11,825 nucleotides of DNA from a bacterium (GTDB taxonomy: Bacteria > BMS3Abin14). Below, one piece after another: positions 174-1,697 of the stretch. Position numbers and translations under genes: made by a program. The notes under the pieces were generated by a model that ran no database searches, had not been told where the DNA came from, and saw nothing but the letters and a program-made list of their open reading frames with translations. Location: the NCBI GenBank assembly GCA_029210545.1, contig JARGFV010000081.1, positions 1 through 11,825 of the forward strand. Reading direction: 5' to 3'. Numbering within the stretch: position 1 is the stretch's first letter; the number at the start of each line of letters is the position of its first letter.

Positions 174-710
174 ATGTGTACGCGTAGAGTAATGCTGGGA
201 TCGGCCATGGTTCTACTCCTGGTGCTGGGCTTTGCCATGCCTTCCATGGCACTGTTCGGGAACAGGTTCGTAGACGAGGTGGAGAAAGAGGCCGGGGCCG
301 TCAAGCTGACACGGGAGGTCATCCTGGGCGGCTACGACGTGGTCACCGCCGAAGAGCTTGAAAAATGGATCGACGAGGGCAGGGAGATGACCATCGTGGA
401 CACCATGCCTTTCGAGGACAGCTACAAGAAAGCCCACGTGCCTGGAGCCGTCCAGTTCCTGTTCCCCGTGCCGGAAATGAAAGAGTGGGACACCGACGAG
501 ACCGGCGGCAAGTCCCCGGAGGATTTTGAGAAGCTTCTGGGGGACGACAAGGACAGGACCATCGTCATCTACTGCGGGTTTGTCAAATGCACCCGCAGCC
601 ACAACGGCGCCCTTTGGGCGAAAAAACTTGGCTACGGGAACGTCTATCGCTTCCCCGGCGGAATCTTCGCCTGGAAGGGGGCGAAGTACCCGGTGGAGAA
701 GGTGGAATAG
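174..710 (+). CDS. Secreted rhodanese-domain protein
   Basis: A 178-residue exported single-domain rhodanese (sulfurtransferase superfamily). Residues 1-26 form a signal peptide: basic start, leucine-rich core, Ser-Met-Ala before the likely cleavage site, so the mature protein should be periplasmic. The domain runs from about residue 54 to 175. The first half has [19 protein letters not shown] (residues 74-92), matching the family's Asp-turn and HxPGA segment. The active-site loop follows VIYC, with Cys134, Cys139 and Arg141; either Cys could carry persulfide, since the loop is longer than the common CxxGxR type. The end, [18 protein letters not shown], matches the usual closing GGxxxW motif. 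The start is chosen by AAGGAG at 160-165, 8 nt upstream. The rubredoxin-like frame begins 20 nt after the stop, so the two are probably co-transcribed. Substrate unknown. Confidence 0.9.
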
Positions 711-730: not shown

Positions 731-898
731 ATGGAAAAGTCAGACACGGTGACACGGGGACACGGCGACGCGGGGAAAGAGCTGGAATACCCGGTTTGGC
801 GGTGCAAAGTCTGTGGCTACCTGTGTGCCCGGGACGATCCGCCCGGTACGTGCCTTGCGTGAAAGGCGGATAAGGACCGGTTCGAAAGGTCCTTTTAA
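731..898 (+). CDS. Rubredoxin-like protein with in-frame TGA (possible Sec)
   Basis: Frame of 55 codons if TGA at 860-862 is read through. Residues 23-41, [19 protein letters not shown], are typical of the small rubredoxin-like zinc-ribbon/iron domain seen in rubrerythrin tails and stand-alone proteins. Three ligands are present: Cys25, Cys28, Cys41. The fourth is expected in C-x-x-C at residue 44, and exactly there the codon is TGA. After it the frame continues [11 protein letters not shown] and stops at TAA (896-898), the family's usual tail and end. So either selenocysteine replaces the fourth ligand (Fe-Cys3Sec), or TGC mutated to TGA. The hairpin at 872-894 fits bacterial SECIS spacing but also resembles a terminator. 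ATG 731 is the only ATG before the domain; AGGAGG lies 15 nt upstream, longer than ideal. Homology is clear; selenocysteine is inference. Confidence 0.6.
743..774. repeat. Octamer tandem repeat, four units
   Basis: Four 8-bp units: gacacggt, gacacggg, gacacggc, gacgcggg. It falls inside the 5' end of the rubredoxin-like frame and encodes residues 5-15, before the conserved domain. Because it lies outside the conserved part, it may be an inserted or expanded repeat, and the natural start of that gene is uncertain. Confidence 0.75.
872..894 (+). promoter_or_regulatory. SECIS-like stem-loop or terminator
   Basis: Stem aaggacc (872-878) pairs perfectly with ggtcctt (888-894); the loop is ggttcgaaa (879-887). 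The loop starts 16 nt after the TGA at 860-862 and begins with GG. Known bacterial SECIS elements lie directly after UGA, with the apical loop about 16-37 nt downstream and a G in its first two positions, so the geometry is permitted though at the lower limit. The same stem runs into TTTT (893-896), so it may equally be the operon's Rho-independent terminator. The two readings are not exclusive. Confidence 0.4.
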
Positions 899-1312: not shown

Positions 1313-1697
1313 ATGACCAGAACCGTTTTCGTTCTCTTTGCCGCCGTGCTGCTTGGCACCTTGACGCTTATTGCCGCTCCCGCCATTGCCGGGGGGGGAG
1401 GTGGGTTACAACTACATGGCCCCTGCGGACCTTAAAGCAAGGATGGAGTCCAGCGCCCCCATGACCGTTGTGGATATACAGGTTAAAGAGGAGTTCGATC
1501 AGCACCACATAAAAGGTGCGCTGGCTACCTACGCCTACCCCGTCAAGTCCGAAATGGAAAAGACCAGGCTGGACACCGTTCTTGACCAGATTGCATCAGG
1601 TTCGGGTCCCGTGGTCATCGTCTGCCCGCGCGCGGGCGGCGGAGCGCAAAGGGCCTTCGACTACCTCGCCGGGAATCGTCGCCTTCCTCCTCGATGA
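1313..1697 (+). pseudogene. Secreted rhodanese, frameshifted in poly-G
   Basis: ATG 1313 follows an excellent AAGGAGG (1299-1305, 7 nt spacing) and encodes a signal peptide, MTRTVFVLFAAVLLG then TLTLIAAPAIA (residues 1-26). The frame then enters a run of eight G (1391-1398) and, unshifted, stops at TAA 1433-1435. Seven G would join it to a rhodanese domain in another frame: MTVVDIQVKEEFDQHHIKGA, then VVIVCPRAGGGAQRAFDYL with the active-site Cys and a loop typical of periplasmic rhodaneses. The stop is at 1695-1697. Joined, the product is about 127 residues, but the family's closing segment after DYL (usually some 20 residues with a GGxxGW-like motif) is missing or scrambled, so a second lesion is likely. 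Alternatives: assembly error, slippage-based phase variation, or real decay. It converges on phoU with 35 bp between stops. Confidence 0.75.
1391..1398 (+). repeat. Run of eight G causing frameshift
   Basis: Homopolymer G8 directly after the signal-peptide codons of the broken rhodanese. Losing one G restores the frame to the catalytic domain. Such tracts slip readily in replication and in sequencing. Confidence 0.85.

Follow-up and report, generated by a model that had tools for sequence, protein, structure and literature searches.

The window, the whole 11,825-nucleotide stretch of bacterial DNA analysed here, contains a short rubredoxin-like open reading frame (ORF) with an in-frame TGA at its fourth metal-ligand cysteine. 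We consider it highly probable (our own judgement, not a computed value) that this TGA arose by nonsense mutation in a duplicated fragment that is now decaying. The ORF is a fragment, a paralogue elsewhere in the genome (contig C157) has an intact motif, conserved residues have been lost in the window copy and a pseudogene is adjacent (Table 1).

Table 1. Features of the window and of one further contig that bear on the in-frame TGA
Feature	Position	Strand	Remarks
Intact rhodanese	174..710	+	Cys form (YCGFVKC) with a hydrophobic N-terminus; lies shortly before the ORF
Rubredoxin-tail ORF, read through TGA	731..898	+	55 residues; detached copy of the FTR-Rub C-terminal tail
Dispersed repeat GGTGACACGGGGACACGG	748..765	+	Part of the ORF N-terminus; 4 copies in the genome
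In-frame TGA	860..862	+	Column of the fourth ligand Cys; family CP[IV]C, here CLA-TGA
SECIS-like hairpin AAGGACC-GGUUCGAAA-GGUCCUU	872..894	+	Starts 9 nt after the TGA
Rhodanese pseudogene	1313..1697	+	C-terminus missing; frame shifted near 1390, at a G run
Tandem rhodanese with in-frame TGA (FYCKGPK-TGA-TKSPQ), L131	C161:2994-3290	-	About 150 further rhodanese residues

The rubredoxin-like ORF and its origin

Read through the TGA (as U), the frame ends at a TAA, and in a profile search its product matches the rubrerythrin-type rubredoxin domain PF21349 (RUBY_RBDX) with 46.1 bits (E 3.3e-12; curated cut-off 26.5 bits) over all 30 model positions, corresponding to residues 23-52. All of the 84 homologous tails that were extracted have Cys in the TGA column. 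The ORF has three ligand Cys plus the TGA, and its four-Cys CxxC...CxxC set is incomplete. These results bear out the sequence-only reading, which had placed the TGA exactly at the last ligand of a rubredoxin-like protein; its description of the frame as family-like to the natural end also holds, KADKDRFER being conserved after the TGA and the frame reaching the normal terminus of the family. The same reading had put a normal gene one base away, and this we reject: three adjacent codons differ, C-L-A-TGA facing TGT CCC ATC TGT in the sister copy on C157. The Pro of CP[IV]C is kept in 83 of the 84 tails and Ile or Val precedes the last Cys in every one, whereas the window copy has Leu and Ala; in addition, the C-terminal Phe of the family is replaced by Ser. 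The sister tail can acquire a nonsense codon in one step in 18 ways, of which five affect a Cys codon and four of these a ligand Cys; the position of the TGA taken alone is thus only a 1-in-4 to 1-in-5 coincidence.

The close homologues come from the bacterial family and from about 80 GTDB genomes; they form the C-terminal tails of proteins in which the ferredoxin-thioredoxin-reductase catalytic chain is fused to a rubredoxin (FTR-Rub). The FTR domain (PF02943) is present in the proteins of the relatives, and a profile search gave no match to it in the window ORF. Similarity to the fusion genes of the relatives at the DNA level begins at about position 764, inside the variable linker, and similarity to the tail on C157 runs from 788 to 913, beyond the stop codon. 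The N-terminus of the ORF includes a dispersed repeat, whose other copies are located at C14:6717, C14:6754 and C43:10992 (a reversed control pattern gave 0). Because the window holds the tail alone, with similarity starting in the linker and part of the N-terminus derived from a repeat, the ORF represents a domain copy that has become detached. The Cys tail on C157, which retains CPIC, is 79% identical to it over 38 residues. In this FTR-Rub of the genome itself (C157, L029:2076-2583), a repeat-like linker connects the FTR part to a rubredoxin part that lies in another frame; the break is either genuine or an indel of the assembly. A Dehalococcoidia genome (L105) encodes an FTR fusion with two consecutive rubredoxin tails, indicating that tail duplication occurs elsewhere too.

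The broken rhodanese, located 0.4 kb downstream of the ORF, has intact versions in relatives. From its ORF list, the remainder of the window looks like a phosphate-uptake operon of the ordinary kind, with phoU, pst genes and a two-component pair. At 57-151, the window also carries an interspersed repeat (GGAAAG..AACGACG..TTTCCC, then TGGACTTTTTGCGACCCT.TCAA), found again in L030 at about 1955-2169 and twice in the relative G008, which looks like a small dispersed element.

Selenocysteine decoding and the hairpin downstream of the TGA

As judged from its gene content, the genome very probably decodes UGA as selenocysteine (Sec), because it carries selA and selB (569 and 363 bits in profile searches, adjacent on contig C14), a tRNA-Sec with anticodon TCA (contig C7), and two genes with an in-frame TGA, encoding a formate dehydrogenase and a rhodanese. 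The TGA of the formate dehydrogenase (FdhA, on C14) is kept in ten relatives and the sequence downstream of it is nearly invariant. The TGA of the rhodanese on C161 is followed by a strong GGC-loop hairpin; this protein scores below the NF041203/TsoB cut-offs, and its sequence suggests that it is probably a real selenoprotein related to them. No selD above cut-off was found in the draft genome searched, and six relatives have a selD that itself contains a TGA. The sequence-only reading had looked to an absence of selB or selC as a ground for dismissing Sec; Sec is not refuted on this ground, as selA, selB and tRNA-Sec are present together with at least one clear Sec-type gene.

The hairpin downstream of the window TGA has a 7-bp stem and a 9-nt loop starting with GG, lies 16 nt from UGA to loop and has a predicted energy of -10.1 kcal/mol. 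It lies within all limits given for bSECIS elements (loop of 3-9 nt with a G in the first two positions, stem of 4-16 bp, spacing of 16-37 nt and MFE at most -7.5 kcal/mol; PMC13188914), with loop and spacing at the edge of their ranges. Among 1064 TGA triplets from three genome stretches, 7% reach -7.5 kcal/mol and 3.3% the energy of the window hairpin; among 85 Cys tails, two reach -7.5 kcal/mol and one exceeds the window hairpin. The elements of FdhA and of the C161 rhodanese differ from it in having a 3-nt GGC loop and a spacing of 22-23 nt. The SelD elements of the relatives have a spacing of 16-17 nt and loops of 3-5 nt, and show no visible alignment with those of FdhA. An Rfam scan of positions 1-2400 of the window revealed nothing relevant. 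We take the hairpin as modest evidence for Sec.

It is nonetheless likely that the hairpin plays no role in UGA decoding and is either a by-product of the sequence encoding KDRFER or a transcription terminator, an explanation that overlaps with a nonsense mutation. The sister Cys tail forms a weaker version (-4.2 kcal/mol), which indicates that the KDRFER coding sequence contributes to the structure, and several other Cys homologues also form a hairpin, one of them stronger (-13.9 kcal/mol). A short T run follows the stem; the hairpin is absent from the terminator scan, but this is not decisive since the scan allows loops of up to 8 nt and this loop has 9. Against a by-product, so stable a hairpin seldom arises in simulated random drift from the sister tail (0.75% of the runs reach its energy).

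Nonsense mutation, selenocysteine or sequencing error

As far as the third ligand Cys (22 codons), the window copy and the C157 tail differ by nine synonymous and three nonsynonymous changes, and over the nine codons after the TGA (KADKDRFER) by four synonymous and no nonsynonymous ones. The changes from PIC to LA-stop and those in the last two codons are all nonsynonymous. For the greater part of its history, partly on the sister branch, purifying selection acted on the tail. Since the segment after the TGA shows synonymous changes only and ends at the normal terminus, any decay must be recent. The loss of Pro and of Ile/Val is better explained by relaxed constraint, as a Cys-to-Sec exchange would be expected to keep the neighbouring residues.

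The sequence-only reading had also proposed that a TGA conserved opposite Cys in several species would support Sec. Every homologue found carries Cys, with no stop at this position, whether among 80 GTDB loci, in 386 genomes of relatives (24 with a match) or in 64 genomes of another phylum (five with a match). The comparison genomes all lie outside the genus of the window, and the ORF may be a genus-specific selenoprotein. If SelB and tRNA-Sec read the UGA with the help of the hairpin, the product would be a stand-alone 55-residue rubredoxin-like protein, in which C-x-x-U would replace the second metal knuckle. Its Sec would either coordinate iron or zinc or, should the site have lost metal binding, serve as a redox selenol. 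The decoding genes, the TGA-bearing FdhA and rhodanese, the location of the UGA opposite a ligand Cys, the conserved downstream frame and a hairpin whose loop length, loop G, spacing and energy lie within the bSECIS limits argue for such a protein. We regard it as unlikely, since the TGA is found in none of the homologues, the flanking Pro and Ile/Val are lost, the hairpin lies at the edge of the permitted loop and spacing ranges and is unlike those of FdhA and the rhodanese, and the ORF is a fragment adjoining a pseudogene. Furthermore, a 2026 review of prokaryotic selenoproteins mentions neither rubredoxin nor rubrerythrin (PMC13188914).

It is very improbable that the TGA is a sequencing or assembly error hiding a Cys codon, in which case the ORF would be an intact small rubredoxin. 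The assembly is in 241 contigs and contains other frame breaks (FTR and rubredoxin out of frame on C157, and the G run of the downstream rhodanese), but these are indels, not substitutions, and a single miscall does not account for the two other codon changes clustered with the TGA (CCC to CTT and ATC to GCG). A nonsense mutation followed by decay is favoured because the fragment lacks the FTR domain, has CLA-stop in place of CP[IV]C, Ser for the C-terminal Phe and a broken neighbour, and because no homologue found has a stop at this site, the sister tail keeps CPIC and part of the N-terminus derives from a repeat. The conserved codons after the TGA, the Sec-decoding genome and the bSECIS-like hairpin count against it; the null model of the sequence-only reading, a simple nonsense mutation, is preferred over Sec but not proven. 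In the scenario that we favour, the C-terminal rubredoxin tail of an FTR-Rub would have been duplicated without its catalytic domain, and the duplicate would have acquired the nonsense mutation and now be decaying. Translation would end at the UGA, producing a peptide of 43 residues that retains three ligand Cys out of four, has no complete rubredoxin site and presumably lacks a function.

Significance and comparison with known systems

A natural rubredoxin-type protein with Sec as fourth metal ligand, derived from a detached and duplicated FTR-Rub tail, is a doubtful candidate here. We know of no described natural rubredoxin with a selenolate ligand, and a search of titles and abstracts on selenocysteine and rubredoxin yielded no Sec-containing rubredoxin. 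If Sec were inserted, the protein would be such a rubredoxin and would allow the role of Sec at an iron site to be tested directly. If it is a decaying fragment, the ORF serves mainly as a warning that genomes able to decode Sec can yield false positives, in which a TGA faces Cys and is followed by a passable SECIS-like hairpin.

The nearest solved structure is that of an FTR-Rub (PDB 4TPU, deposited as 'Rubredoxin'; PF02943 plus PF21349), to which the intact protein of the relative G007 aligns over residues 7-185 (phmmer against 4tpu_A, E 1.9e-60). The window ORF shares the tail domain of this protein and differs from it in lacking the FTR domain, in the TGA at the fourth ligand and in the Leu-Ala preceding it. 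In the double-selenoprotein of the FtrB family (NF041072), Sec is predicted in the FTR part, within a CxU motif (PMC13188914), whereas the window TGA is in the rubredoxin tail; the FTR domain on C157 matches the NF041072 model below its cut-off. The FmdB-family selenoprotein (TIGR02605, UxxU), for which Sec is also predicted (PMC13188914), resembles the window ORF in its small size and paired CxxC motifs, but belongs to a different family and is not an iron rubredoxin. A duplicated pseudogene fragment with a nonsense codon likewise shows a partial domain, lost conserved residues and a broken neighbour; in the window copy, codon conservation extends beyond the stop, and its decay would be recent.
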